This document shows, piece after piece, positions 13,751-47,535 of a stretch of 64,000 bases of DNA; position 1 is the stretch's first letter; the number at the start of each line of letters is the position of its first letter. The notes under the pieces are model-generated. The model was not told the DNA's origin, made no database searches, and was given only the letters and a program-made list of their open reading frames with translations. Both the position numbers and the translations under genes were made by a program. Source of the stretch: an uncultured Clostridia bacterium (GTDB lineage: Bacteria; Bacillota; Clostridia; Christensenellales; Pumilibacteraceae). Location: NCBI GenBank assembly GCA_947175195.1, contig CAMWLQ010000004.1, positions 82,498-146,497 of the forward strand, in the 5' to 3' direction.

Positions 13751-14902
13751 CTAAAAGTTCTCGTATTCTTTCAACAGCTCGGCGGGTATACTTGGACGGA
13801 GCTTTTTGAACGCCGCGTCGAACATATCGCGCCGCAGCGGTATGGGCTTACTAAGTCCTTTTGCTTGCATTTCCTCCAATGCAAGGCGGCACGCCTCTTC
13901 TATTATTCCGCAAAGGTCGGCTGCCGAATAGTACATAGTAGTCACCTTTACGTTGGTGTTTGGCACAGCCGTTTTGGTGTACGTTTCGCTTAGCTCAACC
14001 AAATCCTCGGTGGTCACGCCGTCCAACGCTATGCCGCTGAGTTTGCCCTCGATGATGGCGCGCTTTGCCGTGATGTCGGGCGGCGGCACGTGCACGCGGT
14101 GCGAAAACCGCTTAAACCTGAGATACGCGGGATCGATAACGTCGGGACGGTTGGTCGCCGCTATTATTATGCGTTTGGAGCCGTCCACGCCAAAGCCGTT
14201 TATGCGCTGCAACAGCTCGGTGGTGACGGCGGCTTTGTAGTCCTTGGTGTCCGAAGTGCGCTTGCTGAATATAGACTCGCACTCATCCACAAACAATATC
14301 GCGCCGTCGGCGCAGGCGTCCATTTCGTCAAACAGCTGGCGCACAGCCTGCTCGGACTCGCCCACGTACGACTTGAATATATCGGCGGGCGTTATTACAA
14401 ACAGCGGCAACTGCAGCTTGTTGGCTATCGCCTCGGCAAACATGGTTTTGCCCGTTCCCGGCGCGCCGTACATAAGCATGCCCAAACCGCCCTCTATCTT
14501 GTAATACTTGATAACGTCGGGATTTTGCGCAATAAAGATAAAGCTTTCCACCAGCTTTTTTACGTCGTCCAAGCCCTTGACGTCGGCAAACGTAGTTTTG
14601 GGTATGGTGTGGCTGACCGACGAGCCGTATTCGGTCGCCTTCTTGCCCAGCTTTTTAGCCTTGTCGGCATACTCCTCCGCCTTGACTGCGTCGGTGTGCC
14701 GCTCGGACAGCTTTTGCGCGTACTGCGACGCACGCAAGTACTCGGTGCAAAGCCGCTGCTTGTCCTCAGTGCGCAGGTCGCGCTTATCCTTAACCCCGCC
14801 CAAAATAGTGCGGATATTTTCCACAGCCTCGCTGTAGTTTTTTTCCAACTGCTCGAGCGACGAGCCTTCCGCCGCCGTCGATTTCTTTCCGAATCCCGAC
14901 AT
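13751..14902 (-). CDS. Vps4/katanin-like AAA ATPase with possible MIT-like N-terminus
   Basis: 383 aa. Residues ~15-88 are three predicted amphipathic helices (LEQLEKNYSEAVENIRTIL ... YADKAKKLGKK), like the MIT domain that binds ESCRT-III tails; this part is inference. The classical AAA module follows: Walker A GAPGTGKT 146-153, pore loop KSYVGESE 177-184, Walker B ILFVDE 202-207, sensor region ATNRPD ~249-254 and Arg-rich LRFKRF. The C-terminus (FDAAFKKLRPSIPAELLKEYENF shortened: KKLRPSIPAELLKEY) is the terminal helix shared by Vps4, katanin and p97-type AAA proteins. Predicted substrate-threading hexamer. GGAGGG precedes the ATG; 18 nt separate it from the helical partner gene. Last gene of the ten-gene operon. 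Confidence 0.85.
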   Translation of the reverse strand: MSGFGKKSTAAEGSSLEQLEKNYSEAVENIRTILGGVKDKRDLRTEDKQRLCTEYLRASQYAQKLSERHTDAVKAEEYADKAKKLGKKATEYGSSVSHTIPKTTFADVKGLDDVKKLVESFIFIAQNPDVIKYYKIEGGLGMLMYGAPGTGKTMFAEAIANKLQLPLFVITPADIFKSYVGESEQAVRQLFDEMDACADGAILFVDECESIFSKRTSDTKDYKAAVTTELLQRINGFGVDGSKRIIIAATNRPDVIDPAYLRFKRFSHRVHVPPPDITAKRAIIEGKLSGIALDGVTTEDLVELSETYTKTAVPNTNVKVTTMYYSAADLCGIIEEACRLALEEMQAKGLSKPIPLRRDMFDAAFKKLRPSIPAELLKEYENF

Positions 14903-14920
14903 TTAGTCTTTCCCTCCACT

Positions 14921-15691
14921 TTAAAGAATATCGCTTATATCGTCGGCATTTCCCGCACTGCCGCCCGCGGGCGCGGCCGTACCTACGTCACCGACACTGC
15001 CCGCACCGGCACCGTTGCCGCCGTCGCCGCCGCTGCGCTCGCTAATAATCTTGTCCACCATTTTTTCGGCATTGGTGGGCGGCAGCGGCGCGCCGCCGTT
15101 TGCCTTGACCTCGTACTTTTTGCGGCGCTCGGCGCTCTTTGCCAAACGCTTTTGCGTTTTGACGTTGGATTTTTGCAAGCCCTCGGTTATGGAGAACGCA
15201 AGGTCCTGACTGCTTTCCAGCATGTACATGATTTCCTTGATCCTGCCGAGGTTGTTGGTAATCGTCTTTTGCATACGCTTTTTAGCCTTGCGGCGCGCCC
15301 AAAATCCGTGATTGACCCTTTGCGTGGAGTCAAGCGCCGAGGAATTGAGCTGCAAAATATTATCCATGCAAAGCATAGCGTCGGTAATGCACGACACCGC
15401 CATGCTGACGTCGGTCAACAGGTCGATGGTGTCTTCCATTTGTATCGCCACGTCCAAAAACGTCAATAGCGTTTGCGACATAAAATAGTCCTTGCCGTAC
15501 TTTTGAATCATATCGGCGGCGCGGGTGGCAAGCAGCTCCTTGCGCTTACCGAAATTCTTTTTGGAGCTTTCCAGCTTGCGCTCCTGCTCCGCGCGAACGT
15601 ATTCGTTGTCCAGCTCATCCGCCTGCTTGCGTATGCGTGCGCGGCGCTCCTCGCTTTCGGACATCTCCTCTCTTTGCCGTTCTCTTGCCAT
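14921..15691 (-). CDS. Basic helical protein with acidic tail; candidate ESCRT-III-like partner
   Basis: 256 aa from the ATG at 15691, set by AAGGAG upstream; a longer frame to 15790 would overlap the helicase gene and lacks support. Residues 1-60 are highly charged coiled coil (ERRARIRKQADELDNEYVRAEQ); 63-118 a Met-rich helical segment (AIQMEDTIDLLTDVSMAVS); 130-195 basic helices; 200-256 a Gly/Ala-rich disordered tail with a short amphipathic piece (NAEKMVDKIISER) and the acidic terminus ADDISDIL. Basic helices followed by a flexible acidic tail next to an MIT-AAA gene is the ESCRT-III layout. Sequence similarity alone is not decisive; a structural helper of another kind is possible. Confidence 0.7.
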   Translation of the reverse strand: MARERQREEMSESEERRARIRKQADELDNEYVRAEQERKLESSKKNFGKRKELLATRAADMIQKYGKDYFMSQTLLTFLDVAIQMEDTIDLLTDVSMAVSCITDAMLCMDNILQLNSSALDSTQRVNHGFWARRKAKKRMQKTITNNLGRIKEIMYMLESSQDLAFSITEGLQKSNVKTQKRLAKSAERRKKYEVKANGGAPLPPTNAEKMVDKIISERSGGDGGNGAGAGSVGDVGTAAPAGGSAGNADDISDIL

Positions 15692-15716
15692 AATATAAAA
15701 TCTCCTTGTGAGTTTT

Positions 15717-18700
15717 TTACTTTGTAACGTACTTTTGCACTGCGGCTTTAAGCGCCGCTTGTTCGGCTTGCGTGTTGTCAAAGTAGTCATGAATATGCAC
15801 CTTGTGCAAAACCCAGCCCCTGCCCGACAGCGACGTCACGTACCGAGCGTTGTAGTCGAAAAAGTCGTAACGCTTTTGCACGGGCAATTCGCACCACACG
15901 CCTAGCTCGGCTTTGCTTAAATCCTTTGACAGCACCGCTATAGGTATGCGCACCGAGCCGTCCGTAACGCCGTAATCGGTTACAATACGTTCTTTTGCAA
16001 TACCCAAGCTCTCTATATAGCGTGCCACTGCGGAAATAAAGTGCTCGCCCTTTTCGGGTACTGCCGACACGAACTGACCGGAATTATCGGCAAACCGCTC
16101 CACGCCCGCAAGATAGCTGCGAATAAACGCTATGCGGTCGTTGCCCGCCATTTGCCGCGACGTAAGCGTGTGAATGACGGTGACCTTATTCTTTGCGCGC
16201 GTGACCGCCACGTTAAAAATATTCTTGCCCGTCGCGTCGCGGTTAAGCTCGCCGAACGCCAGCTTGACCTTGCCGTTTTTGTCCTTGCCGTACGTGAGCG
16301 AGAGAATAAGGTTGTCCGTTTCCTGACCCTGCACGCTCTCTATGGTGCGGAAAAACACCAGCTTGTCGGGCACGTCGTCAAAGTTGCGCCACGCCGTTTC
16401 TATCATATCGTTGAGCTTTTTGTCGGCACGGACAAGGCTAAGCACGTACTTTAACTGCGCCTCGCCGAACGTGACCACGCCCACCGACGTGGACAAAACT
16501 CCGCGTTTTTTGTCGTAGTACTTGTCAAAATGCTCGTTGAGCGCGGCGAGGACCGCGTTTGCCTCGACGACGTTTACACCGTCCTCGCAACAGCCGTCGG
16601 CTGTGAGAATATCGGTAAAGCCGAGGTCGGGCGTCTTGGGCACCGTCGCGGGGAAGGTGCGCATATACGGGTAAAACTCGCGCTGCGAAAACTCGATAAG
16701 GCTTTCGGTCTTGCTGCGGTAGTGGCAAACAAGCTCCTCCGTGTCGAACGCGAGGTTGCCCAGCGCAAGACTGAGCGCCGATATATCGGTGTCCAGTGTA
16801 AGCTCTGTTGTTTCGTCGCTTATGCGCTTGCGGTTTTTCGTTTTAAAGTGCGTGAGCGGCGGCATTTGGAACTCGTCGCCCACCAGCACGCATTGCTTGC
16901 TACGGAACAGCACGGGCAGCAAATCCACAGGCTCCATTTGGCTCGCCTCGTCCACTATTACCACGTCGAAGTTTTCGTAAGCCTCGCCGCGGAACAGCAC
17001 GCTCGCCGTGGACGGCGACATTATAAAGCACTTTTTAAGCTTGAGTATAGCTTTTGCATACGTGCGGAACATTACCCGCAGCGACATGTTTATGCCCTTG
17101 TCCACCGCCAAGAAATCAAAGTCGTCATCATCGGCGTCTATGCGCGCCATGCACAAGCTTTCGGTGCGCACGGCGTTGCACTCGTATATCTCGTTTTCCG
17201 CGTCGGTAAAATTCTTAATAGCAAGCTCGGCGGCTTTGCCCAGTCCGTTGCGGCGGTTGCCCAGCGTTGCGATCTTGCGGTCTATCACAAGCGCAAGGTA
17301 CGAATGAACGAACAAGTCCACAAACCGCTCGGTCGGCACGTCCACCCTGCCGTCCTCTATCGGCGCAAAAAACGCGTCGAGCAATGCGTTTTGCCTGCGC
17401 AAAATATTGTCGTAGCTTAACGCCGCGCCCGCCGCCGACCTGTCCTTGGCTTGCGTTATCAATACCGCGCTATTTTTCGGCGTAACGCTCCACGGCGCTG
17501 CGGCATAGGCGTTTACAAAATACATAACGCCAAAGTCCTTCAGCTTTTTAACTACCGCCGCCACGTTTGACGCAAGCGCTGTTTCGCCCTGCAAAACAGT
17601 TACAAATTTTTCCGTCATTTGCGCGTCGCAGTTAAACTGCGGGCAATGGTATATCCTAAGTAGCGCCGACAGCGACTGCGCCTTTAAAAGCGCATTATCG
17701 CCCACGGCAATGCCGCACCTGCCGCACATTGCGAACAGCGCGGTATTCAGCTCGGACTGCGCTTGCATAAGCTCCACAGCCGATATAAAGCGATCTATTA
17801 CGTAATCGTCGGGCGTTTTTACGTAGTCATTTGTTGCGGCTATAATTTCCGCTGCGGACTTGCACGCCGACACAAACTCGCGCATATCGACGCCGAATTT
17901 TTCGCTATGCTCGGCGACCGCGAGTATACATTCCGTTTGCTCTTTTGTAAGTGCGTTAAGTCCCACAACGTGCGCGAGCACGCCGCTAAGCCCGTTGATT
18001 TTGCCGTCACATTCGGCAATACGGTTGTAAGACAGCGCGGCTACCGCAAGCTCATTCAACGCAATATCGGTGCGCGAACACACGGCGCGGATTTTCTTTT
18101 CCGCTCCCTTCGCCTTGAAATCGAACAAGCCGATAGCGGGCTTATCGCCGCCCGCATACGGCGCTAACGCCGCGCACGCCTTGAGTAGCTGCCCGTCGTT
18201 AAGCTTAGCCTTGTCGAACACAAAAAGCACGTCGGCAGTTAGCGCATCGCGTTCCGATTTGAGCGCGTAAATATTTTTCACCGTTTCGGTAAACTTTGCC
18301 GCCGCTTTGTCCGTCATCTCGTCGCGCAAAAACAGCTCGGCATTATCGGCAACGTTGTTGACAACAGAAAGCTTGAGCCCGCGCACAGTCTTTACGTCCG
18401 ACACGTGCATAAAGCAGTCGGCTTTAACGCCGTCCGCAAATACGAATTTATCGGCATCAATCGCCACGGTCTTAGCGCGCTCGTACTTGTCCGCAAGCAT
18501 TGTCAGCAGCTCGCCGTCGGTCTTTTTGAGCGTTGTAACAGCCTTTGCTATATCCCCGCCTTTAAGGGCGTTAGGCAGCGCCGCGTCATACAAATCGCCG
18601 TAAGTGCAGTCGCTCCACGGAATATCGCCGTGCGCTTTTTCAAGCCGTTCGATTACGGCGTTTATTCCAATCATATCGTCGGCAATTTCGCCGAGCGCGG

Positions 18701-20225
18701 ATAAAGCACCGTCTATGTCCGTTTTGTCGGTTACGCCGTGCCACGGACTGAGCGCGACCTTTCCGTCACGCAATAGCCGCGCATAGTGTGCGGCGCACTC
18801 TTTGACACCAAGCAACAGCTTGTTGTAATCCTCGCGTGAAATTGCCGCCGCGCTGCCGCCGTCCGTAAACTCTATGACGGGCAGGTCGGCGTCCTTATAG
18901 TACGTATCAAGCGCATCGTAATACGAGCCCCACGCGACGTCGCTGCCGAACACCTCGGCTTGATAGTCGCCAAGTGCTATCATAGCCTCCGCTTTGGCGC
19001 GATCGGCGCGGCAGTATTTTAGGTCGTACTTTCCGTCGTAAACGTATTCCTTTTTGTTTTTGATAAGCCGCTTAAACTCGGCGCGCACCTCGGCGGGATT
19101 GACCGCCGCGGCTTTTTGCTCGGTTTCGTAGTCGAGCAGCATTACAAACTTTCTAAGCCGCTCTGGCAGCTTTGCATACACCTCGGCAAGCGCGGAAAGC
19201 TTTTCGGATGCGACAAGCACGCTTTTGCCCTGCGCAAGCAACGTGGCAAGCATGTTGGCTATGGTCAGAGTTTTGCCCGTTCCGGGCGGACCCTTTATAA
19301 TCATAGACTTTCCTGCCGCTACCTTGCCGATAATATTATCCTGCACGCTGTCGGTGGGCAGTACGGGACGAGTAGTCACCTCGCACTCGTCCGTATCGGG
19401 CAACGGCGCACCGCCGCCGAATACACGCCGTACAAGCGGATGCGCGTAAATCTTTTGCTTGTTGCGCCGCACGTCGTAGTACATGCAAATGTCGCTGTGG
19501 TTGTACTGCGCAATCGTAATTATATCTTTATCGAAGGACACGCTACCGCCGATAGCGGACACAAACTCGCTTACACGGTTCATATACTCCGTGCCGTCAG
19601 CCAGCTTGTCCAAATCGATAGCGTCGTCAAAGCTTTGTCCCGCGCCGTTGGGGTGCGGAAAATTAGAGGTAACGCTTTCCGCAAGCTCGTCCTGCATACG
19701 CGCAATAAGGCAGGGATTAAAATACGCGTCGTCGTCCACAAACTCTATTTCCACATTGCCGGTGTTTGTGCCGCGCACAAGCCGAATGGGAAAAATAAGT
19801 AACGGCGAATTAACCGATTTTATCTCGTCGCCGTGCGCAACCGCCCACGACAGCAATCCCACGCCCAAAAACAGCGGGTTGTTGCCCTTTAAGTCGAGCG
19901 CGTTGTACGCGGCGGAAATAAACTTATCAAGTGCGGCGGCATTTTTGTTGCACGCAAGATCAGCCCAGTCCCACTGCTCGGTGAGCGTGCTGTTTACCGT
20001 CGCTTTTACAAGCGCGCTGCCGCTGAGCACGGTCTTGTTGGACGGCTTGCCACGGCGGGCGCGAATTACGTTAAGCATAGTGCGGCTGTTGTCGCCGCTT
20101 GCGCAAAACAGGCGGTACGCCTTGTCCGATCCGCCCTCGCCTATCACGCCCACGTCGAGCAGCCTGTTGCCGCGCACGTCGTCGGTGTGTAGTAATCCTT
20201 TGATAAACTCGTCCAAAAATTCCAT
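15717..20225 (-). CDS. Giant DUF4011-type SF1 (UPF1-like) helicase
   Basis: 1502 aa. The N-terminal region (NPLFLGVGLLSWAV ... SPLLIFPIRLVRG ... DDDAYFNPCL, ~116-172) matches the DUF4011 module that precedes many bacterial SF1 helicases. Walker A GPPGTGKT 312-319; a ~650-residue helical insertion; Walker B VVIVDEASQM and motif III LVGDEFQMPP at ~1085-1115; motif V ESVQGQETDNLIL and motif VI NVAVTRAKNKV at ~1300-1345. The last ~130 residues (IPIAVLSKDLSKAELGVWCE onward) resemble the restriction-endonuclease-like tail of these proteins, but catalytic residues are unclear. Predicted ATP-dependent nucleic-acid translocase. It lies 25 nt from each neighbour. Confidence 0.88.
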   Translation of the reverse strand: MEFLDEFIKGLLHTDDVRGNRLLDVGVIGEGGSDKAYRLFCASGDNSRTMLNVIRARRGKPSNKTVLSGSALVKATVNSTLTEQWDWADLACNKNAAALDKFISAAYNALDLKGNNPLFLGVGLLSWAVAHGDEIKSVNSPLLIFPIRLVRGTNTGNVEIEFVDDDAYFNPCLIARMQDELAESVTSNFPHPNGAGQSFDDAIDLDKLADGTEYMNRVSEFVSAIGGSVSFDKDIITIAQYNHSDICMYYDVRRNKQKIYAHPLVRRVFGGGAPLPDTDECEVTTRPVLPTDSVQDNIIGKVAAGKSMIIKGPPGTGKTLTIANMLATLLAQGKSVLVASEKLSALAEVYAKLPERLRKFVMLLDYETEQKAAAVNPAEVRAEFKRLIKNKKEYVYDGKYDLKYCRADRAKAEAMIALGDYQAEVFGSDVAWGSYYDALDTYYKDADLPVIEFTDGGSAAAISREDYNKLLLGVKECAAHYARLLRDGKVALSPWHGVTDKTDIDGALSALGEIADDMIGINAVIERLEKAHGDIPWSDCTYGDLYDAALPNALKGGDIAKAVTTLKKTDGELLTMLADKYERAKTVAIDADKFVFADGVKADCFMHVSDVKTVRGLKLSVVNNVADNAELFLRDEMTDKAAAKFTETVKNIYALKSERDALTADVLFVFDKAKLNDGQLLKACAALAPYAGGDKPAIGLFDFKAKGAEKKIRAVCSRTDIALNELAVAALSYNRIAECDGKINGLSGVLAHVVGLNALTKEQTECILAVAEHSEKFGVDMREFVSACKSAAEIIAATNDYVKTPDDYVIDRFISAVELMQAQSELNTALFAMCGRCGIAVGDNALLKAQSLSALLRIYHCPQFNCDAQMTEKFVTVLQGETALASNVAAVVKKLKDFGVMYFVNAYAAAPWSVTPKNSAVLITQAKDRSAAGAALSYDNILRRQNALLDAFFAPIEDGRVDVPTERFVDLFVHSYLALVIDRKIATLGNRRNGLGKAAELAIKNFTDAENEIYECNAVRTESLCMARIDADDDDFDFLAVDKGINMSLRVMFRTYAKAILKLKKCFIMSPSTASVLFRGEAYENFDVVIVDEASQMEPVDLLPVLFRSKQCVLVGDEFQMPPLTHFKTKNRKRISDETTELTLDTDISALSLALGNLAFDTEELVCHYRSKTESLIEFSQREFYPYMRTFPATVPKTPDLGFTDILTADGCCEDGVNVVEANAVLAALNEHFDKYYDKKRGVLSTSVGVVTFGEAQLKYVLSLVRADKKLNDMIETAWRNFDDVPDKLVFFRTIESVQGQETDNLILSLTYGKDKNGKVKLAFGELNRDATGKNIFNVAVTRAKNKVTVIHTLTSRQMAGNDRIAFIRSYLAGVERFADNSGQFVSAVPEKGEHFISAVARYIESLGIAKERIVTDYGVTDGSVRIPIAVLSKDLSKAELGVWCELPVQKRYDFFDYNARYVTSLSGRGWVLHKVHIHDYFDNTQAEQAALKAAVQKYVTK

Positions 20226-20250
20226 TCGTAGTACCTATATATCACAAATC

Positions 20251-22149
20251 TTACGTAAAGTCAATACCGTTCCAGTATTCGTCCAGTCCGCGCCGACAGT
20301 CGATTTCAAACGCGTATGCGTCCGCCTCGTAAATATGCACCTTGTATACGTTTGAGCGCGTGTTGCGGTCGTACGCCTGTTCGAGCGTTTCCCGCCACTT
20401 ACACGACCTGCCGTAGGTTATGCCCATATGGTCGTAATACCACGGCGACCAGTTTCCGCCCATAAGCCGAGCCTGCAACGCGTGAAAGCTTTCGTGCACT
20501 ATCGCGTCGCGCATCCACGAAACGTCCTGCGCCGAGGAGTACTTGAACACAATACGCTTGCCGCCGTCGTAGCACAACCCGCCCGCGCTGCCGTTTTCCA
20601 TTTCGTCGGCGATTTCCACTATCGGGTCGATAGGTATGCCGAGCACGCGGTAAACCAGCTTGACCGCAAGCGCGGCGCGACCTTCCATATCACCGCGTTC
20701 CAGCCTGCTCCACACCGAGTAATCGTCCGTGCCCGTAGTGCAGTACCGCGCGAGCAAGCCGCACTTGCCGAACACCGTGGCATTGCTTTCCACTATCTTT
20801 TTTACGTTGTTAATATCTATCGCGGGTATGCCGTCATAGTCGAATTCGCCCGCGCCGTTATCGGCACTGCCGCCGCCGCGAAAATCGCCCCAGCCGTCGT
20901 CTATAAACAGCATTGCCGATTTGATACGCGACAAGTACCGCTTGGCGGCGTCAGCATTGCCAGCGGAAATCTTGCGCCCGCGCGTCATCCAGTTAGAATG
21001 GTGCTCGGGGCGCACAATCTCGTTAAGCCCCGCAAAGCCCAAAAACGGCATGTCGCGCAACGCCGCGCGCGCCGCAGTATCGTCCGCCATTTTGAGCGAC
21101 GTAAGCTCGTCCACAGTCGCCTCGAACGCCGGCATAGTTATATAAGATTCGCTTATATCGAGCGCACTCAAGTCCTCATACTGCACCGCCGCGGTCAGTC
21201 CGTCGTCGTACAGCGCGCCGCCCTGCACGTCGGCAATAAACACGCGCGTACCCGCCTTGCCCGCCGCCATTGCCGCGCGCAAAAAGTACGTGCGGTTATC
21301 CTCGGGAATCATGTCGGTATTGGATACGAACAGCGCGCACTTTTTGTATTCGGCATAACAAAAAACCTTGTCTATGCCGTCGCGCGAGCCGCCGACCGAA
21401 TTAATATTGAACTCGTAAATTTCCATATCGCGCGGTATGGCGTTGGCTGCATACAGCCGCGCCTCGTCAGTAAACGGCGTGTTTAGTATAAGCGCGTTAG
21501 CCTTGCCACCCTCGTCACATTCGGGCGTGGGAAAGTAATCGCAGTCGCGTAAATTCAGTCGTTTTACCGCCACCGTGCGTTCAAGCGCTTTGGCGTACGC
21601 GCCGCAAATGCCCGCCTTCCAGCTTTCCAAGCTCTCCGCTATATCGCCCGACAACGTGGGGAAAACCACGCCGTCCTCAAACGGTGAGGTCATGCCCGCA
21701 TTAAGCAATCCGTCTATAAGCTCGGTCGCGTTTTGTATTATCTTTTTGCCGTTTAGCGCAAGCGCGTTTTCGCTGCTCGCCTGCGCGGAAATTTCCTTTT
21801 TTGTGTCTATGTACCGCGCGAACAGCGTGACAAACTTTAGCGTGTTTTCCATTGCCGCGGCGCTCTTGTTGTAGCCCTTTTCTTTGGCTATCGGCAGGTT
21901 TTGCTCGACAAAGTTTTTCAGCTTGTCAACAAGATTGCCGTCAAAGTCGGGAGATAAACATTTGAGCCCGAAAATCTTGCATGCCAAACGCATGCGCAGC
22001 GCATCGGCGTTTGCGCGGTTATTGTCGTTTAGCGCGGGTATTAGCAAAAGCTCCTCTATAGAGGCAAGCGCACTGTCCAGCGCCGTTATATCGGTCGAGT
22101 AAATGTACTCGGTATTTGCGTCGGTAATTACCTGTTTAAAATTGATCAT
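20251..22149 (-). CDS. Zincin metallopeptidase (HExxH)
   Basis: 632 aa. The zinc motif HESFH (~residues 548-552, in DAIVHESFHALQARLMGG) is followed ~55 residues later by EADAYAFE, a likely third ligand of gluzincin type. The N-terminal ~500 residues are a helical region then an alpha/beta region (ALFVSNTDMIPEDNRTYFL, GTRVFIADVQGG) of no recognised family. No signal peptide, so it is cytoplasmic. ATG overlaps the upstream stop (ATGA). In the operon context it may process a partner protein; that is inference. Confidence 0.75.
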   Translation of the reverse strand: MINFKQVITDANTEYIYSTDITALDSALASIEELLLIPALNDNNRANADALRMRLACKIFGLKCLSPDFDGNLVDKLKNFVEQNLPIAKEKGYNKSAAAMENTLKFVTLFARYIDTKKEISAQASSENALALNGKKIIQNATELIDGLLNAGMTSPFEDGVVFPTLSGDIAESLESWKAGICGAYAKALERTVAVKRLNLRDCDYFPTPECDEGGKANALILNTPFTDEARLYAANAIPRDMEIYEFNINSVGGSRDGIDKVFCYAEYKKCALFVSNTDMIPEDNRTYFLRAAMAAGKAGTRVFIADVQGGALYDDGLTAAVQYEDLSALDISESYITMPAFEATVDELTSLKMADDTAARAALRDMPFLGFAGLNEIVRPEHHSNWMTRGRKISAGNADAAKRYLSRIKSAMLFIDDGWGDFRGGGSADNGAGEFDYDGIPAIDINNVKKIVESNATVFGKCGLLARYCTTGTDDYSVWSRLERGDMEGRAALAVKLVYRVLGIPIDPIVEIADEMENGSAGGLCYDGGKRIVFKYSSAQDVSWMRDAIVHESFHALQARLMGGNWSPWYYDHMGITYGRSCKWRETLEQAYDRNTRSNVYKVHIYEADAYAFEIDCRRGLDEYWNGIDFT

Positions 22150-23672: not shown

Positions 23673-23682
23673 TGGGTAACTC

Positions 23683-24783: not shown

Positions 24784-24786
24784 ATT

Positions 24787-27700: not shown

Positions 27701-28038
27701 GCCGCCTCCACGGTGTCGGCAAGTATGGCGGGGTTACTGCTGCCAAATTCGGCAAGCCAAATAATTACAAATACTATTGTGACTATTATATATACTATAA
27801 ACAACGTTAGCGTATACTTGAACCGCTGATTGGACAGCGCCACGCCCGCCAAGTACAGCAGGTCCGCAACCGTCATTGCAAACGGCAAAAACCAGTACGC
27901 ACTTGACGCGCCGAATACCCACAACGCTATGCACGCGGCAAAATCGGCTACCGACATTAGCGCCAAGCCTATAATCAACCATATTTTATGTTTGCCCGAA
28001 AGCATTTCCGTGACGGGCGAATGTGAAACGTTTTTCAT
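24787..28038 (-). CDS. Five-TM membrane protein with BspA-like and MBG ectodomains
   Basis: 1083 aa. Five hydrophobic segments lie within residues ~18-165, placing the rest outside the cell if the N-terminus is inside. Then comes a BspA-type leucine-rich segment (VVIPYEFNGRKVTAVSANIF, IKSVTLNCDSDV), an Ig-like domain, and five to six MBG repeats with the signature W-x-N-T-x-L-x-Y-N-G-x-x-Q-x-P-T-A (e.g. VTWGNTELTYNGEVQAPTA). It ends without an anchor. It is unusual to find a surface protein in the middle of an operon of cytoplasmic ATPases (gaps 3 and 10 nt); it may tether or sense for the complex. Confidence 0.82.
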   Translation of the reverse strand: MKNVSHSPVTEMLSGKHKIWLIIGLALMSVADFAACIALWVFGASSAYWFLPFAMTVADLLYLAGVALSNQRFKYTLTLFIVYIIVTIVFVIIWLAEFGSSNPAILADTVEAAWGMLHVFGILAVAISYLYASRRLRLMRHVQLVFAIGLSAVVLLALVLFYGITIISDGYFGQGNDTIPLVYTYVGDNECMVTDIVYGKGDKVVIPYEFNGRKVTAVSANIFSYANIKSVTLNCDSDVALCEDLNSVRSLNTKIIIYADKKDVDTIKYNLYGEQENIIYTTLKHELGNRVRPIGLDKDEVYVTFDYDRDSYLYAQGEIIPTWYGKKGDKFVLSDFDDVDYVEYSDVNSDEDLYYCYNNIKINGGNGQIMCELQDGGKALDGMTITKSCDNVPVRFQRIYKVLAGVSNDNMYNTADWFNFATINGIKRDFKLTVADKADELLEPFDRGEAFTRHMHYSAFNTPQYREFTSLSELLSEGYSEVAIAPHWELVKPQITLSAVDGSTDFVYGDDFELTATVTHPLGDVQIEYEWYDETQRISYDQVLKENASDVGMHTYTAIVKVSAPEVTLRTSGNAAEIKVNVNKRPLTVTWEHKSIGSLGDDTQSYGTESVFDGKQRVIQPTAHNAVNNDSIYFMGATVLDAGTHTERATLSSYIAEKYYIAEGETYTYTIYPRPVPLTWGEQTEFEYDGNSHSPSAQAFDLWDSELDIRYIGTQIDAGENYTVTAEIVNTNYTIDESSEKSKGFKITPKQVSVTWGNTELTYNGEVQAPTATAVGVNNANVNLNITGGQINVNMIDGNKTATYTATATSANKNYTLDPTTASKEFTIAPYVLTGIGWSNSVVRYNGQAQLPTAMVTGAKDKNVPLTVIIEDFPEGAINAGNYTATATVADPNYTIYDGPLFPIYDDITSELTAAQWPFIILSMEVRVEWSNTALTYNGSEQTPTATAKGVNGEDLPLTVSGGRRDVGTGTATAAFATEQQNYTLTNTTVRFTVQQRVLTISVNDVTIEYGQTPDYTYTVDGLISGDNVTVTFSLNVLTVDGNIPVGKHIINVTLSGSDNGNYKLNVVRNGTLTVTAPTQTEE

Positions 28039-28048
28039 TAATGTACCC

Positions 28049-29689
28049 TCACTTTACCTTTTTGGGCGGATCGATATAGCCGAAATCATGCGCGTCCAGC
28101 TTGTTGAACACGTATCTCTCCTCGCCCAGCTCGAAAATTATAATATTGCTGTCTTCCTTACAAAACTTTTTGTCCTTTAGGTGCTTGAGCCTTACGCGCA
28201 GCGCGAGCATTTTGCTGTACTTGCGGTACAGCTTTTTGCCCTCTTCGGTATACGCAAAATCGCCGCACAGCCTGCAATACCCGTTTTTGCCGGTATGCTC
28301 GCCGTACGTCCTGCCGCAGCACTTGCACTTTTTAACCTTGCCGTCGGTAAGCACAAACGCTTGCTCGTCCAGGTTGAGCGTGGACGTGAGCTTGCCACCG
28401 TCCACACCGCTCGAAAATATATTGGTATAAACAACCTCGGGATAAGGACAGCCCTTGCACTTGCGTTCCACATTGCCGTCCGCGTCCGTGAATTCCACCG
28501 ATTGATTAAAACAAATGAGCCGCGTGCAATCGCTGTTTCGCATATTCTCCTTGCACGAAATTTTGAACAAGTGCCGCGAAATCAACGCCGAGCTTTTTAT
28601 CAAATTGATTGCCTCGTTGCCCAGTCCGAGATTGCGCTCGGCAAAATCCAAAACGTACCCGCCGTCATATTCGTCTTGATCGAACAGTACGTTGTTGTTT
28701 TCCACCAGCAGTACGCCGTCCTTGCTGCAATTTGTGCAGTACAGGCTTATGCTGTTGTTAAGCCCCACTATCAGCTTGAGCACGTTTTGCCCACCCACGC
28801 TGACCGCATAGGCAAAGTTTTGCCATTCCACGTGCGAAATGCCCAGCACGGTAACGTGCGTACATTCCAGCTCCTTTTCGTCGCTGGTGGCAAGCAGCTT
28901 TAGCATTTTTTCTATCTTGGGCAAATAGTCGGGGTTGAACATTATGTAATCGGCGCACCCCTCGTCCTCGAAAAGACTGCCCGCGCGGTTGAGTACGTCG
29001 CTGACCAGTTGACCGTCCACCAGCTCGCCCGCGCCGCTTTGCCCGTCGTCGGACGGCACCGCCGATTTAATGTAATCGTCTATGCCCTTTGCCTCGCCGC
29101 GGCTGACGGGTATGAACTTGCCGTCACGCCCGACTCTAAAGTACACCTTGCCGAGCAACGGCTCCGATTCCGCGCCGCCGTTTATTTCCAAACGCATTGA
29201 CACCGCGTAAAAGTTTTCCGCCTCGGGCGTGTAGCGCTCGGACACCGAAAACGGCGCGTCGATCACGCGCTTTAAAAAGCCGTCCGAAAATCTTTTGATA
29301 ACAGCCTCTACAGCGCCGCTGCCGGCAGCAAGCCGACTGTCGACGGGCTGACGGAATTCTATAAGCGAGTAGTATTTGTGGTAGTCCGCGCCGACGTCCG
29401 CAATGAGCTGTTCCCAGTCCGAGCTGCTGCTGTCAAAGCTTTTGCCGCGCAGGTTGGCAAACCAGCTCGCACCGTCCTTGTCGAACCTGAGCTCGTTTTC
29501 CTCGCCGCCCCTTGCGCCGTTTACGCCGTGCTCGTCTTGGCAGTACACAAACACATTAGCCGCCGTTACTATTTCCGTATCGGTGACGCGCTTTATATTT
29601 ACCTTGTCGGACAAAAATCCGTTTTTGTATAGACTGCAAATGCTTTTGAATTCCTTTTCGTATTCGCAGCCGACGTTAATTCTTGCCAT
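28049..29689 (-). CDS. Zinc-cluster protein of ten-gene operon
   Basis: 546 aa. The N-terminal ~300 residues are an unrecognised domain with no catalytic motif I can name. From ~315 it has many paired cysteines: YCTNC, the CKEN...C...C group, CKGCPYPE, and a clear ribbon CKCCGRTYGE...CRLCG at ~475-500. A basic helix follows (KYSKMLALRVRLKHLKDKK). AAAAGGAG precedes the ATG, 3 nt after the SNF2 gene. The Cys-rich half resembles the C-terminal half of that helicase in style, suggesting the two work together. Confidence 0.75.
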   Translation of the reverse strand: MARINVGCEYEKEFKSICSLYKNGFLSDKVNIKRVTDTEIVTAANVFVYCQDEHGVNGARGGEENELRFDKDGASWFANLRGKSFDSSSSDWEQLIADVGADYHKYYSLIEFRQPVDSRLAAGSGAVEAVIKRFSDGFLKRVIDAPFSVSERYTPEAENFYAVSMRLEINGGAESEPLLGKVYFRVGRDGKFIPVSRGEAKGIDDYIKSAVPSDDGQSGAGELVDGQLVSDVLNRAGSLFEDEGCADYIMFNPDYLPKIEKMLKLLATSDEKELECTHVTVLGISHVEWQNFAYAVSVGGQNVLKLIVGLNNSISLYCTNCSKDGVLLVENNNVLFDQDEYDGGYVLDFAERNLGLGNEAINLIKSSALISRHLFKISCKENMRNSDCTRLICFNQSVEFTDADGNVERKCKGCPYPEVVYTNIFSSGVDGGKLTSTLNLDEQAFVLTDGKVKKCKCCGRTYGEHTGKNGYCRLCGDFAYTEEGKKLYRKYSKMLALRVRLKHLKDKKFCKEDSNIIIFELGEERYVFNKLDAHDFGYIDPPKKVK

Positions 29690-29692
29690 GGT

Positions 29693-32584
29693 CTACTCCT
29701 TTTCGCTCTCGCCGTCGCGTTCGAGAATACGGCGGACGTCGGTGACGATTTCCGCCTGCTCGCCGAGGTTTTGGCAAAAGCCTTCGCCGCCGTCATGGTC
29801 GAACTTCCACAGCTCGGATATGAAGGTGGCAAACGTGCGCGCAACAACGGGGCGCAGCTTGCCGTGGTTACGGCGCGACGAACAGCTTGGCATGGGACAG
29901 TCCGCCTCCCACTTGTCGTTAAACTCCAAAGCATACGGCTTGGGGCTGCAGCCTGCGTAATCGCAGTCGGAGCACCGTCCGCCCTCGCCCGCCTCGCCGA
30001 CGATTTGCTCTTTGGGCAGTCCCGCAATCTTGCATTTGTCCCAGCAGTCGCTGTTGTCGCACATTGCGCAAATGCGCATGAGCTCGACGTCCGATATGTT
30101 GCTGACCTCTTTGTACCGTTTGAGCACGGGGCATTTTCCGTACATATGCCCGCCCTTGTTAAAGCGTTGGCAATGCGCTATGGCACAAATTTTGCGGCAG
30201 TATATGGACCTGTCGCCCTTTTCGCCCGAATTGCACATCCTGCCGCGCTCGCCGTTTTCCACACTGGAAAAACACATATATCCGTCCGACACCGAGCGCG
30301 TGAGCACCGTGCCGCAGTTGTCGCACTTAAAGTCGTATACAGTTATCTCGCACATCTCCGTGCCGTTGCCGTCGGCGTCTATGCACTGCGTTTCGGCGCG
30401 GCATACGAGCGCGCCCGGTTTTTTGCGCTTTTCGTCGTAAGCCTCTTTGGACATCAATACTACCCTGCCGCACGCGTTGCAGCGCAGCGCGACCATTTGG
30501 TCGGAGTTGCTGCCCGCAAGTATGGTGGCGTCGCCCGTGTTGCCCGAAAGCAAGCCTATCTCGGCAAAGTACGCAAGCGCAAAGCCTTCCAGCTTGCTCA
30601 TATCCGCAAGCGAATACACTATTACGTCGTTCTTTTGCCCAAGCCTGAATATACGCCCTATGCGCTGGTCCATTGCCAGCGGGTCGTAGGTTACTTGATA
30701 ATTTATTATTATGCTCGATTCCTGAAGGTTTGCGCCCTCGGTGTACTTGGCGTCCTTTACTATGAGTATGGCATTACCGCGCTTTGCCGAATTGAACTCG
30801 CGCTCTACCGCGTGCACGTCGGCTGCCTCGTCGCCCACTATTATCCTGTCTTTAAGCTCGGGATCGCGCATGAGCGCGGCGCACACCTCGTCGTATATGC
30901 GTTCGCCTTTTCCGAGGTTGTAATCGAAGAACACCAGCACGCGTTTGTCCTTGTGCTGCTTGAGTATGCGCACAGCCGTTTCGTACTTGTAGTCGGTAAT
31001 GCTGTCGCTCAGCTGTACGGGCACAAAGTACGACTGCTTGGCAACGCTGCCGTGCGTGTTGCGCAGGCGGTCGGCGTAGTACGTGATATAACCGTTTTTG
31101 GTGTGTATGGCTTTGGTTTGCGGATCGCCTTCCGCCAGCCTGCCCAGTATGCTGTTTATTACGTGCGCATACGCCTGCTCCACCGAAAGATTGCCGCGCA
31201 AGTTCTTTACGTAGTCTATTAGCGACAGCTCCTCCGAGCCGACATGCACGATGGGCATGCCCGCCTCTTTCGAGCGCGAAAAGTCTACCGTTATCTTTTT
31301 TTCGTTAAGCCCCGTTATCTTGACCGTTTCGGGCACGCGCGACATCGGATAGAAAAAGTAATTGTGTACCGATTTGGTTTTGGATAGACGGTTGGGCTGG
31401 CGTATCATAATGGAGCGCAGCACGCCGTTGTGGTACGCGTCCGATATGCGCTTTAGCACGTCGTCCTTTATCGCCTTGTTGCCCTCGGCGTTCAAAAAGT
31501 CGTCTATGTACTGCGCACGGTCGTACTGCGATTTGGCGTTAAAGTCGTCCGCCCTGCCTATTTTGAATAGGTACGAACGCAGCTCGTCAAAGTACTTTTG
31601 CATTACCACCGAATATTTTACTCGGCGGATAAAATCGGTAATATTGGTCGCGCCGTAGCACACAGTGTCCTTGTAGTACTGCTTTTCCTCCAAGTACTGC
31701 GCCGTGCGGTCGGCGTCGTCCTTTTCGTCAAAGTCGGACGGATTGCCGCCCTTGCACCGCACAAAGTACCACAGGCGGAACATGTTTTCGAGATTGCCAG
31801 AGTGCGGCGTTGCGGTAAGCAACAAGCAGTACGTTGCGCCCGCGCGCTTTTTGGTTTGCATCATCTCCGACAGCATGCGCATTGCGCCCGCGTACTTGCC
31901 CGCGTCCTCGCTAAAGTGATGCGCCTCGTCAACAACGACGACGTCCACCAAAAAGTCGGGGCTGTACCGCCACTGCGCAAATATGTCTACGTCAACTATT
32001 ATGGGGCGTTTGGGACGGATAAACTTGCCCTGCTTACTCACGCCCACCTTGGATAATACGTCCTGCAGCGTGGGGTACTCGCCGTCCGTTTTTTGCACCT
32101 TGTACAACACGTCCTTACCCATACCGAACTTGTTTTCCAGTACGTCCACCCAGCTGTTAAGCACTTGGTCGGGCGTGATGACGATGAGCGATTTCATTTT
32201 GCCGCGCACGGCAAGCTCGCTCAATATTACGCCCGCCTCAAACGTTTTGCCGCTGCCCACGACGTCGGCAAGCAAGCCGAATCCGCGCAGGTCGCGCAAA
32301 AACTTCTCCGCCGCCGCCTGCTGGTGCGAAAGTATAACGCTGCCGCCCTCGCCGTGAATATCCCTGTCCGCGCCAATGCCGTACTCGACCTTGCCGTTAC
32401 GTTTTTTGTAGTGAGAACAGTCAATCAAAAGCTCGTGAAAATCGTCGTGGCTGTCCAACGCCTCCACGCTTTGCTGCGCCTCCGCAACCTGACGGGTAAA
32501 CTTCTTTTTGTATTGCAGGTTGCTGCGCTGTACGTCGGCTGAAAACGCCGTGTCCGTAAATGTAAGCTTGTAGTTATCTTTCAT
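29693..32584 (-). CDS. SNF2/RapA-like helicase with C-terminal zinc clusters
   Basis: 963 aa from the ATG at 32584 (GGGAAGGAG upstream); a GTG at 32608 would add 8 residues. Helicase motifs: Walker A VVGSGKT (~108-114), ITPDQVLNSW, DEAH-type VVVVDEAHHF (~215-222), LLLTATPHSG, and in the second RecA domain TEGANLQESSIIINYQ and QRIGRIFRLGQ. The final ~280 residues contain over twenty cysteines in ribbon-like pairs (CNACGR, CDNCG, CAMCDNSDC, CSDCDYAGC, CPMPSC). Predicted DNA translocase/remodeller rather than unwinding helicase. This partly resembles DISARM DrmD as a SNF2 protein, but no DISARM neighbours are present. Confidence 0.88.
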   Translation of the reverse strand: MKDNYKLTFTDTAFSADVQRSNLQYKKKFTRQVAEAQQSVEALDSHDDFHELLIDCSHYKKRNGKVEYGIGADRDIHGEGGSVILSHQQAAAEKFLRDLRGFGLLADVVGSGKTFEAGVILSELAVRGKMKSLIVITPDQVLNSWVDVLENKFGMGKDVLYKVQKTDGEYPTLQDVLSKVGVSKQGKFIRPKRPIIVDVDIFAQWRYSPDFLVDVVVVDEAHHFSEDAGKYAGAMRMLSEMMQTKKRAGATYCLLLTATPHSGNLENMFRLWYFVRCKGGNPSDFDEKDDADRTAQYLEEKQYYKDTVCYGATNITDFIRRVKYSVVMQKYFDELRSYLFKIGRADDFNAKSQYDRAQYIDDFLNAEGNKAIKDDVLKRISDAYHNGVLRSIMIRQPNRLSKTKSVHNYFFYPMSRVPETVKITGLNEKKITVDFSRSKEAGMPIVHVGSEELSLIDYVKNLRGNLSVEQAYAHVINSILGRLAEGDPQTKAIHTKNGYITYYADRLRNTHGSVAKQSYFVPVQLSDSITDYKYETAVRILKQHKDKRVLVFFDYNLGKGERIYDEVCAALMRDPELKDRIIVGDEAADVHAVEREFNSAKRGNAILIVKDAKYTEGANLQESSIIINYQVTYDPLAMDQRIGRIFRLGQKNDVIVYSLADMSKLEGFALAYFAEIGLLSGNTGDATILAGSNSDQMVALRCNACGRVVLMSKEAYDEKRKKPGALVCRAETQCIDADGNGTEMCEITVYDFKCDNCGTVLTRSVSDGYMCFSSVENGERGRMCNSGEKGDRSIYCRKICAIAHCQRFNKGGHMYGKCPVLKRYKEVSNISDVELMRICAMCDNSDCWDKCKIAGLPKEQIVGEAGEGGRCSDCDYAGCSPKPYALEFNDKWEADCPMPSCSSRRNHGKLRPVVARTFATFISELWKFDHDGGEGFCQNLGEQAEIVTDVRRILERDGESEKE

Positions 32585-32604
32585 ACCGTTCCTGTCTCCT
32601 TCCC

Positions 32605-34596
32605 TCACGTCAACTGCGTTTCGATATTGAACGAGAATTCTATATCGCGTTTAAGCACAGTTTCCCTTTCGCCGTAGCCGCGGCTGTCCAAGTACTCTAT
32701 AACCGTGAATTCCGAGCCGTTGCGCTTTTTGTCGTTGCGGGCGTACGCCTTGGCGTAGCCGTCGCCGTCGATTTCCACGCCCAGCTTTAAGTATACCTCT
32801 TTGATTATGCGCACGCGCCTGCCGTTGTAGTAGTACTTAGCACGGCTGCCGTTATTCATATTGTCTATACTGCCGTTGAGTACGCGCAAGCCAATTTCCC
32901 TTTGCAGCTTGTTAAGCATCGTCTTGTTGTCGGTGTCCACCACCAACAGGTTTTCACCGCCCGATCTCGAATACGTTATAAGCGGCGCTTTGCGCGAATG
33001 TTCTATGTCCTGCGCCGAGTAGAACGTGCTCATTATGTGCATTGCCGCCGACTGCTCGGAATTGTCGCCGGTAGTTATGCCGCCCTTGTCGCCGTCCTTT
33101 GGCGTGTAGTACGTTGCACCGTTTTGCGGCAAGCGCGTGCCCTTGTTGACCAGCACGCGAAAAAACGGTATAACGTTGTTGCCGTTGCCCACGACGCGGA
33201 AAAGCCGCACGCCGTAGGTCAGCGCAAGCACCATGTCGATTACCATACCGCACATGGACGCCACCGCGCAGCCAAGCGCAGGCGCGTACAGCGCGTCCTC
33301 GTGGCTCATAATGTTAAACCCGTCGTTCTTGACGCCTACGTATTCGCTGTCGTCCTTTTCGAATGTGTATACCTTTACGCCCAGCGGCTCGATAAACCTG
33401 CGGATATATTTCATAAGTCCGTATGTTTCCACCGGTCCGCCGGTGATGAAAATCTTTTTTATATCGGTGTTTATCGGACGAATCAGCTCGTCGGTTATGT
33501 AGTTGACTATCTTGCGCGCTACGCCGTTGTTGTCCGTAATGCCAACGCACTTTTCAAACTGTTCGCGCGTTATATTGCGCTGTATAAGCAAGTCCCGCGA
33601 CGCGGAAATGGGCACGCCGTAACGGAAGGCGCGACTGTCGTAAATGGGCATGCCGAGCACTATCTTTGCCGACTTGATGTCCTTTACAAACAGGTATTGC
33701 TTGGTGTTGAGCGCCGACTCGGCAATGTGCCCTTCCTGCCCGCTGGACGGTCTGCCCATGGTTTCCCGTCCCGACATTTGTCCTTCTATGTACCGCGCGA
33801 TTGCGTCGTCGATGTCCTTGCCGCCTATGGGCGCGGGCTCGTTGTGTCCGTCCACGCCGTCCACCGATACGCCCGTTCCCGAAAACGTGACCTTGACGAG
33901 CGAAATGCGCTCCTCGCCTATATTGAATATTATCGACTTGTCGTTCTTAGCCATTCGTCCCGAATACTTGGCGTATGCGCACAGCGCCTTTGCCATGCTC
34001 ATTACCGATTTAGGCTGAGTGCCGAACGCGTGCGTTACAAGCCGTTTAAGCTCGTTTACGTACTCTCCGTCCGAAAACGCGGGATACACAATGCTCGGCG
34101 TTATTTCGGGCGCTTTGCCCAACAATAATTGCAACCGACCGACCACAATGCCGTGCACGTATTCGAAAAACAGCTCGCACACCTCAGACGGGGTTTGCGG
34201 CGCGGTAAACGTTCTGTCCTTAAGCACCGCCGCGTCCAAATCGTCGGTAAGCACGTCGCGCTGCGGAAAGTAGAATTTGGGGAATCGCGTCTTTTTAAAG
34301 TAGTAATTACGGTTACTCTTTTGCGTCGTCGCGTTTGCCGCGGGCTGCAACAGCCTGAGCAAATCGCAAATTTTGACAACGGTAATAAACGGCTTGTCGC
34401 CGACCGAATTCACCTCGTCGCCGAATAGCCATTTACTTTCCTCAACGTCGTAGTACGCCACCGACGGCACGGCGGTCATAGTCAGCGGGTCGCCCACTAT
34501 CTTGCCCGTGTGATCGTTTCCGTCGTTGTACGCGTACGCGATTTTGATTGTGTCGCTGCCGAGATCGAGAGCTATGTGTACCGATTGTTTTGCCAT
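32605..34596 (-). CDS. Hsp70-like ATPase, first gene of ten-gene operon
   Basis: 663 aa. Actin/Hsp70-fold ATPase: phosphate-1 motif ALDLGSDTIKIAYA (9-22), phosphate-2 IIFNIGEERISLVKV (222-236), the Hsp70-like GGKDIDDAI (258-266) and adenosine motif FITGGPVETYG (~383-393). From ~455 a beta-rich segment (VRLFRVVGNGNNVIPFFRVL ... YLKLGVEIDGDGYAKAYA) resembles the Hsp70 substrate-binding beta domain; the helical lid seems absent. The N-terminal half carries a ~60-residue insertion rich in aromatic and basic residues (~85-130). It is far from DnaK in sequence and not with grpE/dnaJ. Stop TGA is 20 nt before the SNF2 start. Confidence 0.85.
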   Translation of the reverse strand: MAKQSVHIALDLGSDTIKIAYAYNDGNDHTGKIVGDPLTMTAVPSVAYYDVEESKWLFGDEVNSVGDKPFITVVKICDLLRLLQPAANATTQKSNRNYYFKKTRFPKFYFPQRDVLTDDLDAAVLKDRTFTAPQTPSEVCELFFEYVHGIVVGRLQLLLGKAPEITPSIVYPAFSDGEYVNELKRLVTHAFGTQPKSVMSMAKALCAYAKYSGRMAKNDKSIIFNIGEERISLVKVTFSGTGVSVDGVDGHNEPAPIGGKDIDDAIARYIEGQMSGRETMGRPSSGQEGHIAESALNTKQYLFVKDIKSAKIVLGMPIYDSRAFRYGVPISASRDLLIQRNITREQFEKCVGITDNNGVARKIVNYITDELIRPINTDIKKIFITGGPVETYGLMKYIRRFIEPLGVKVYTFEKDDSEYVGVKNDGFNIMSHEDALYAPALGCAVASMCGMVIDMVLALTYGVRLFRVVGNGNNVIPFFRVLVNKGTRLPQNGATYYTPKDGDKGGITTGDNSEQSAAMHIMSTFYSAQDIEHSRKAPLITYSRSGGENLLVVDTDNKTMLNKLQREIGLRVLNGSIDNMNNGSRAKYYYNGRRVRIIKEVYLKLGVEIDGDGYAKAYARNDKKRNGSEFTVIEYLDSRGYGERETVLKRDIEFSFNIETQLT

Positions 34597-34646: not shown

Positions 34647-34675
34647 ATTATATCACCGTAATACTCTTATGTCAA
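34647..34675 (-). promoter_or_regulatory. Perfect-consensus promoter of ten-gene operon
   Basis: Minus strand TTGACA (34675-34670), exactly 17 nt, TATAAT (34652-34647). It gives a ~45-nt leader before the Hsp70-like ATG. No operator-like palindrome is evident next to it, so strong constitutive expression is predicted. Confidence 0.8.
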
Positions 34676-35144: not shown

Positions 35145-35150
35145 AACTGT

Positions 35151-35179
35151 ATTATACATTACCCCGCAGCAAAACGCAA
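35151..35179 (-). promoter_or_regulatory. Leaderless-type promoter
   Basis: Minus strand TTGCGT (35179-35174), 17 nt, TATAAT (35156-35151), then 6 nt to the ATG at 35144, so transcription should begin at the start codon itself. Confidence 0.65.
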
Positions 35180-35194
35180 GCGTATACACAAATT

Positions 35195-44234: not shown

Positions 44235-44352
44235 ATGCGGCAGCTACCTACTCTCCCGGTCCGTCACCAGACAGGTACTATCGGCTCCATAGGGCTTAAC
44301 TTCTGTGTTCGGAATGTGAACAGGTGTGACCCCTACGATATGACCACCGCAA
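44235..44352 (-). rRNA. rrf: 5S ribosomal RNA
   Basis: Minus-strand sequence contains the 5S hallmarks GGGGTCACACCTGTTC, CATTCCGAACACAGAAGTTAAG and GGAGAGTAGG, with complementary ends (TGCGG / CCGCA). It lies directly against the tRNA-Asn gene, a few nt at most. Confidence 0.93.

Positions 44353-44428
<76 letters not shown>

Positions 44429-44602: not shown

Positions 44603-47535
<2,933 letters not shown>

Follow-up and report, generated by a model that had tools for sequence, protein, structure and literature searches.

The 64,000-nucleotide stretch of an uncultured Clostridia bacterium's genome analyzed here (the window; contig CAMWLQ010000004.1) carries, at positions 13751-34596, an operon of ten minus-strand open reading frames (ORFs), g1 to g10. 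Eight of these genes, g1 to g6, g9, and g10, form a core that recurs in related genomes in one constant order, and g7 and g8 are an optional pair occupying one fixed slot. The set brings together three or four predicted ATP-powered motors, predicted metal-binding proteins, and a predicted surface protein; it matches no named system among those tested, and every recognizable domain in it is already known. Judging by its distribution and gene phylogeny, the operon is likely an accessory unit that is horizontally exchanged within one Clostridia order. We put at roughly 0.4 the probability that the eight core proteins form a membrane-linked, ATP-driven accessory machine that defends the cell against invading DNA, with g10 recycling an assembly of g9 by way of its tail.

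A preliminary description of this DNA, made from the letters alone, had reported ten minus-strand genes with gaps of -4 to 25 nucleotides (nt) behind one perfect promoter, and this picture holds. All ten ORFs lie where that description placed them, and the gaps from g1 to g10 are -4, 3, 10, 3, 10, -4, 25, 25, and 18 nt. The gap between g8 and g9 assumes a g9 start at 15691, the mechanical ORF start at 15790 falling within g8; the later Met is the start used by 24 of 25 homologs, the remaining one being a fragment. The features of the operon, in the direction of reading, are as follows.

34647..34675, minus strand: promoter-like TTGACA-17-TATAAT, 50 nt before g1
32605..34596, minus strand: g1, Hsp70/actin-fold ATPase-like protein, 663 amino acids, core
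29693..32608, minus strand: g2, SNF2 helicase with a Cys-rich C-terminal part, 971 amino acids, core
28049..29689, minus strand: g3, predicted zinc-binding protein (invariant cysteines), 546 amino acids, core
24787..28038, minus strand: g4, five predicted transmembrane (TM) helices followed by MBG/Big-type repeats, 1083 amino acids, core
23683..24783, minus strand: g5, four-Cys ribbon (C3 C6 C23 C26) and Sel1-like stretch, 366 amino acids, core
22146..23672, minus strand: g6, coiled-coil-type helical protein (coiled coil judged by eye), 508 amino acids, core
20251..22149, minus strand: g7, HExxH protein, predicted zincin, 632 amino acids, optional
15717..20225, minus strand: g8, DUF4011/SF1 helicase with an MTES_1575-like C terminus, 1502 amino acids, optional
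14921..15691, minus strand: g9, charged helical protein with a predicted disordered linker and a conserved C-terminal motif, 256 amino acids, core
14924..14944, minus strand: C-terminal tail of g9, DDISDIL, candidate AAA-recruitment motif
13751..14902, minus strand: g10, classical AAA ATPase with a Vps4-like layout, 383 amino acids, core
14621..14857, minus strand: N-domain of g10 (residues 16-94), three-helix MIT-like predicted fold (fold model)
14084..14479, minus strand: AAA module of g10, Walker A/B and Arg-finger region

All 8 window-clade copies of the operon have the promoter-like sequence in perfect form, with a score reached by at most 1 of 200 shuffles in each, and in the distant copies with enough upstream sequence (n = 26) the best match covers 8 to 12 of the 12 positions. 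The operon is not a foreign-looking patch, because its G+C content (0.50-0.56) is like that of the adjoining genes (0.51-0.54). The SNF2, DUF4011/SF1, classical AAA, and MBG families that had been named from the window proteins all pass their Pfam cutoffs, and the other six proteins (g1, g3, g5, g6, g7, and g9) match no Pfam family above cutoff.

The operon is neither confined to one strain nor a housekeeping locus, two of the three outcomes named beforehand as fatal to the idea of a distinct system. Searching with g1 detected the operon in 16 of 121 relatives; among the 19 other species in the genus, 9 had it and 10 gave no g1 match (some of these genomes being only 78-88% complete). A g1 profile matched 32 of the 396 genomes sampled from the order (~8%), in 13 of 142 genera, and left 364 unmatched. 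A g3 profile run on the same 396 genomes also gave 32 matches, 31 of them in genomes that share g1. The two unshared matches are G391, whose 3.3-kb contig is too short to reach g3, and G143, matched by g3 only, at 16.5 bits (E = 9.4e-4), which we dropped as chance. At class level (391 genomes), only G000 and G074, both members of the order, were counted as g1 matches; fragments of ~20 bits in G576 and G637 were taken as other Hsp70-fold proteins and dropped.

We read 35 copies of the locus: the window, the 15 others of the relatives' g1 search, and 19 further order genomes (G391, G293, G188, and G272 have g1 but were left unread). The recognized genes stand in one constant order in all of them, as far as each stretch reaches; the end of the operon is visible in 21 copies, the other 14 being cut by contig or fetch ends. 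Nine copies have the complete ten-gene form, among them G077, which has an extra g7 and a g6 recognized by eye. In nine others g6 is followed directly by g9 and g10, and G019 shows this same eight-gene join without g7 and g8, so that the order of the set described earlier is conserved while g7 and g8 fall outside its invariant part. The coiled-coil-type g6 is kept in both the eight- and the ten-gene form. Two copies depart further: in G030, g1 to g5 precede three more ORFs and a g10 that is divergent, and at the G074 locus, to which the search was limited, g1 to g5 are followed by genes read as hrcA-grpE-dnaK-dnaJ. The G357 copy has an additional 206-amino-acid ORF between g1 and g2, and the profiles did not recognize the ORF that follows g4 in G375, the one standing where g6 would be in G283, or those at the cut ends of G234 and G303. 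The extra g7 of G077 belongs to a tandem of g7-like genes (L039:12929-16744), 28% and 25% identical to the window g7.

All genes compared have ratios of nonsynonymous to synonymous substitution rates (dN/dS) well below 1. In five pairwise comparisons the values were 0.03-0.32, with 0.25-0.35 in a divergent block of G007 (one G007 value, for sua5, was discarded because of a frame error); g10 is lowest or tied for lowest in every comparison, and g4 is highest outside the G007 block.

Within the genus the insertion point can be read as pgk, up1, nb, sua5, and its two borders in the window are as follows.

34806..35189, minus strand: up1, small protein with two TM segments, left border of the insertion site
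12767..13528, plus strand: nb, 253-amino-acid protein, right border of the insertion site

Besides the window, six named records (L003-L008) show the up1 side, and the nb-sua5 side was read in G000, G004, G009, G007, and G011. In the 11 congeners in which pgk was found and no window-type copy lies at this place (pgk was not found in a twelfth, G008), up1 and nb are neighbors within ~0.6 kb in 9 and enclose other cargo in 2, G001 and G017. The up1-nb site is a variable locus, of the kind that the preliminary description proposed to look for: in the genus it has the operon, has something else, or is closed. G015 and G018 have the site closed, yet each has a 37-38% identical copy of the operon elsewhere in its genome. 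In the window the spot spans 13529-34805, and it is filled by the operon throughout the window clade; its cargo in G017, read by eye, is a glycosyltransferase and a two-component pair, and that in G001 consists of small unknown genes (variable-spot stretches L152 1333-5511 and L153).

The phylogeny of g2 across the 35 copies points in the same direction. The window clade joins a copy from family f20 with support of 98/98. Families f1 and f6 are each split by strongly supported branches, requiring two or more changes apiece; deep placements are unsure because of long branches. Exchange may also have occurred inside the operon, since G007 is 71% identical to the window in g5 and 85% in g10 but only 46, 51, 62, and 42% in g6 to g9, as if a cassette had been swapped within a constant frame. 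Cargo of phages or plasmids was considered and rejected: tblastn with g1 gave 0 matches in 50,697 phage records and 0 in 72,556 plasmid records, and the viral contigs searched held no relative of g2.

The core proteins combine several kinds of predicted activity. An actin/Hsp70-type pattern is kept by g1, with conserved DLGxD and GG motifs; D11, G13, D15, G227, G386, and G387 are among the residues invariant in 35 copies. The Hsp70 nucleotide-binding domain attributed to it earlier is borne out in part, in that 5 of 12 aligned g1 sequences match PF00012 (HSP70; best E = 1.1e-4) while the window g1 itself has no Pfam match, and a profile search of the PDB gave DnaK and SSB1 matches only at E = 0.049 or worse. 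The SNF2 motor of g2 (SNF2-rel_dom, 33.4 bits) is complete, with GSGKT, DEAH, and Q..GR motifs and many cysteines that are invariant (≥97%) in 35 copies. In g3, 11 cysteines are invariant in 13 sequences, and the Sel1 match of g5 (16.9 bits) lies below its cutoff of 30.7. For g4, 14 of 16 copies have five TM segments predicted within their N-terminal ~165 residues and the other two have three or four, and MBG_3, MBG_2, or Big_3 repeats were found in 5 of 7 scanned copies; full-length copies range from 900 to 1916 amino acids. It is predicted to be a surface protein whose C-terminal part would be exposed.

At the end of the operon, g9 and g10 make up what may be a Vps4-like pair. A tail of the form (S/D)-D-I-(L/V/I/A) closes 17 of 18 full-length copies of g9, the 18th ending in IDDITFM; an MIT-binding partner might carry such a tail, in the manner of the MIM motif. 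Sequence searches gave no Snf7 match at the operon, no ESCRT-III or PspA Pfam family among the best 25 of 32 families for g9 (26 sequences), and an hhalign probability of 0.2% for g9 against PspA. The fold model of g9 is poor, with a predicted local distance difference test score (pLDDT) of 63.2, and has no Foldseek match at E = 0.001; fold searches returned designed bundles, BAR and other coiled-coil chains, and a few Vipp1 chains, none significant.

The AAA module of g10 is clear (116.8 bits), and its Walker A/B motifs are invariant (≥97%) in 19 copies. Its N-domain model (pLDDT 85.6) resembles MIT chains in a fold re-alignment in which a designed bundle ranks first, and the fold list includes katanin and chitin synthase chains, which we take to be MIT domains; the first MIT chain in Foldseek comes at E = 2.5, and sequence searches with the N-domain gave no MIT match. 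Vps4_C is found in 8 of 9 g10 sequences at E ≤ 0.1, weakly (best 4.4e-4; 17.9 bits in the window against a cutoff of 21.3). By AAA score per domain, p97/Cdc48 (119.1 bits) and CdvC (118.5 bits) are nearly equal, the best 60 of 70 profile matches are all p97/Cdc48/AFG2/NVL/Rix7-type chains, and the general AAA_5 family is matched weakly beneath the main AAA match. The description of g10 as a Vps4-like AAA protein finds support in its layout only, from the MIT-like model and the weak Vps4_C match.

The optional pair adds a second helicase and a predicted protease. The HExxH motif of g7 stands as described, H552, E553, and H556 being invariant in 20 of 20 sequences, and E608 is invariant as well. 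In g8 we found DUF4011 (40 bits) and both SF1 blocks, followed by an MTES_1575 match (18.9 bits) below its cutoff of 38.2. The canonical motif of this nuclease-like family is R-I-D; within residues 1425-1500 of g8, R-I-P or K-I-P stands at the motif in 11 of 11 copies with a visible end.

In keeping with the earlier statement that no described system has this set of genes, no named system in PADLOC or NCBIfam was matched at its own cutoff, where one is given; a literature search for Hsp70, DUF4011, and SNF2 together found no papers, and no publication returned by the literature searches was recognized as describing the set. Several systems share parts of it. Among the matches listed, the top-scoring models for g2 are DrmD of DISARM (114.6 bits), BrxHI of BREX (106.8), and DpdE of Dpd (95.4), against 75.4 for RapA, but DrmD and DpdE have cutoffs of 610 and 500. 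Among the matches listed for the ten proteins (the best 25 of 42 for g2), no model for the non-helicase partners of these three systems appears, DrmA (62.7 bits) being a helicase model matched by g2 itself. The anti-phage proteins Hhe, ProA, and PDC-S37 resemble g8 in having DUF4011, SF1 blocks, and a nuclease-like end; the scores are 246.3 bits for Hhe (cutoff 2000), 378 for ProA (cutoff 1500), and 371.7 for PDC-S37 in PADLOC, and here g8 is optional within a longer operon. IetAS is comparable in the single AAA domain of g10, which matches IetA from residue 57-61 (117.4 bits), and in the predicted protease g7 that ten-gene copies encode alongside it. IetS, however, is of the subtilisin type; the ten proteins gave no subtilisin match, g7 is an HExxH protein that is missing from the eight-gene form, and g10 scores 105.9 against an IteA cutoff of 510.

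Two further comparisons concern architecture. In the excerpt of PMC11090510 used here, CoCoNuTs are predicted defense operons with an Hsp70-like domain, coiled coils, zinc ribbons, and an accessory AAA protein, all of which have counterparts in this long operon; CoCoNuTs are, however, type IV restriction systems related to McrBC, and among the matches listed no DUF2357- or McrB-named model matched the ten proteins. Archaeal ESCRT (CdvB/Snf7 and CdvC/Vps4) is approached by g10, with its MIT-like model and weak Vps4_C, and by its helical, charged neighbor g9 with the conserved tail. The differences are that MIT is undetectable by sequence, that g9 is not Snf7-like, that the CdvC match of g10 in NCBIfam (146.1 bits over residues 21-382) lies below the cutoff of 650, and that the pair is linked here to Hsp70-like, SNF2, and surface-type proteins. 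ESCRT homologs are identifiable in archaea and not in bacteria according to the excerpt of PMC10936438 consulted, and that of PMC11237479 describes several lineages of bacteria as having received VPS4-like ATPases by transfer, a TPR/6TM gene having displaced Snf7; the operon described here, with its tail-bearing partner, would differ in context from those transfers. A DUF4011 gene has been used as a hotspot border (PMC10250203, in the part consulted).

What might these proteins do together? The parts point to nucleic acid (g2 and g8), protein assemblies (g1, g10, and g7), and the membrane (g4). In the machine that we envisage, g4 would sit in the membrane with its variable repeat region displayed outside as sensor or anchor, while g1, g2, and the Cys-rich g3 and g5 would act inside on nucleic acid and its protein partners. 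The protein g9, perhaps with g6, would assemble, and its (S/D)DI(L/V) tail would recruit g10 through the MIT-like domain; the AAA ring of g10 would then unfold and recycle g9, much as Vps4 treats ESCRT-III. In copies that include them, g8 would contribute a helicase and g7 a protease effector.

Genes that are patchy, exchanged, and modular and have DISARM/BREX-, ProA-, and IetA-type relatives often belong to conflict or defense systems. We favor defense because g8 is kin to anti-phage DUF4011 proteins, g2 to the SNF2 proteins of DISARM, BREX, and Dpd, and g10 to IetA, and because of the patchy, horizontal distribution, the cassette exchange, and a few restriction-type neighbors. CoCoNuTs offer a precedent, within the excerpt of PMC11090510 cited above, for a single predicted defense operon in which Hsp70-like, coiled-coil, zinc-ribbon, and AAA parts occur together. 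The earlier suggestion of a multi-ATPase machine handling nucleic acid and membrane, perhaps in defense, is thus upheld in its multi-ATPase and membrane parts as a reading of the sequences, defense remaining a step beyond them. A number of points weigh against it. Homology of g9 to PspA or Snf7 was unsupported by the sequence searches, its fold model is poor (pLDDT ~63), and the MIT resemblance of the g10 model is structural only, without sequence support. The nuclease activity of g8 is doubtful because R-I-P or K-I-P replaces R-I-D, so this end may be inactivated. The NCBIfam kinship scores of g2, g8, and g10 are far below the cutoffs of the named systems, most traced flanking genes are ordinary, and restriction-type neighbors occur at few of 24 genomes.

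Defense aside, the operon could build, export, or turn over g4, its AAA and Hsp70-like proteins remodeling membrane complexes and its SNF2 protein serving in transcription or assembly. We regard such an envelope or surface machine as rather unlikely, and several observations would fit it too: g4, a large surface-type repeat protein with N-terminal TM segments, belongs to the core, 13 of 17 genus g87 genomes have the operon, and the G074 copy comprises g1 to g5 only (the locus alone having been searched). It is harder to reconcile with the SNF2 motifs that g2 has kept in 35 copies, with the membership of the optional helicase g8 in an anti-phage-related family, and with the absence of secretion and wall enzymes from the Pfam matches of the ten proteins. 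True ESCRT-like scission, in which g10 would control filaments of g9 and g6 that cut or reseal membrane, either to mend damage done by phages or toxins or to release vesicles containing nucleic acid, seems to us a weaker candidate still: ESCRT-III sequence homology is lacking, the fold searches with g9 gave no specific match, and helical bundles score middling Z values even without kinship. Very improbable, finally, is cargo of a mobile element that helps DNA to be transferred or maintained (in conjugation, transformation, or replication). The presence of two helicase-type motors beside an AAA protein in a single unit would fit such a role, as would the serine recombinase and Rep-like gene upstream of the G074 copy, but no relaxase, coupling protein, integrase, or pilin Pfam match was found in the ten proteins, and the phage, plasmid, and viral searches given above were empty.

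Whichever function applies, the set fits no tested named system and yet is a conserved, exchanged unit in ~8% of the sampled genomes of its order. If the defense reading is right, it adds a surface-anchored, multi-motor class. The boldest form of that reading, which we hold to be doubtful, is a bacterial counterpart of ESCRT-III/Vps4 in which g9 would be a sequence-unrelated polymer with an MIT-binding tail and g10 a motor of MIT, AAA, and Vps4_C domains, connected to motors of the Hsp70-like and SNF2 types and to a surface-displayed sensor. The whole would travel as a self-contained eight-gene accessory immune machine that handles DNA at the membrane and has an exchangeable helicase-protease module. 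Should the Vps4-like step prove true, bacteria would have a dedicated AAA protein equipped with an MIT-type domain, together with a partner marked by its tail, and this would bear on whether PspF or another ATPase serves PspA/Vipp1 as Vps4 serves ESCRT-III, a question left open in the excerpt of PMC8281802 used here.

The neighborhood of the operon was surveyed by scanning the flanks of 24 genomes (135 of 160 ORFs, in batches of 70 and 65) against PADLOC. The matches were mostly generic, to primase-like, dGTPase, E1-E2, and helicase models (best 25 of 36 and best 25 of 96 families); some batch matches, MzaA among them, were not traced. The proposed check for defense islands yielded a few restriction-type neighbors amid mostly ordinary traced flanks, and we claim no enrichment because the scan had no control set. 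The restriction-type neighbors traced are in G007, G030, and G074. In G007, the genome with the divergent g6 to g9, a GmrSD-type gene lies directly after g10 (L055:9383-11239, minus strand). A DNA methylase lies 1.2 kb before g1 in G030. In G074, three genes ~12 kb past the copy (L061:11030-13713, minus strand) form a type II methylase-nuclease cluster, judged by motif and by eye, which probably accounts for the strong type II matches of the scan. Upstream of the G357 copy, L127:2844-5648 has an SspH match of 189.6 bits.

Other observations concern the surroundings. The serine recombinase and Rep-like gene (REP_ORF2-G2P) upstream of the G074 copy (L067:2976-5926, minus strand) may represent a mobile element, and upstream of the G071 copy (L063:270-8195, minus strand) an FtsK/SpoIIIE-type ATPase and three proteins with no Pfam match perhaps form a secretion-type cluster. 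In the window, a 23S-tRNA-Asn-5S cluster occupies 44235-47532 (minus strand) within a stretch of 40-50% G+C; no 16S gene was found in the 64 kb at the Rfam threshold, and 16S may be unlinked in this genome. At the end of the window, positions 63858-64000 hold three copies of a 48-bp tandem repeat with a 97% match.

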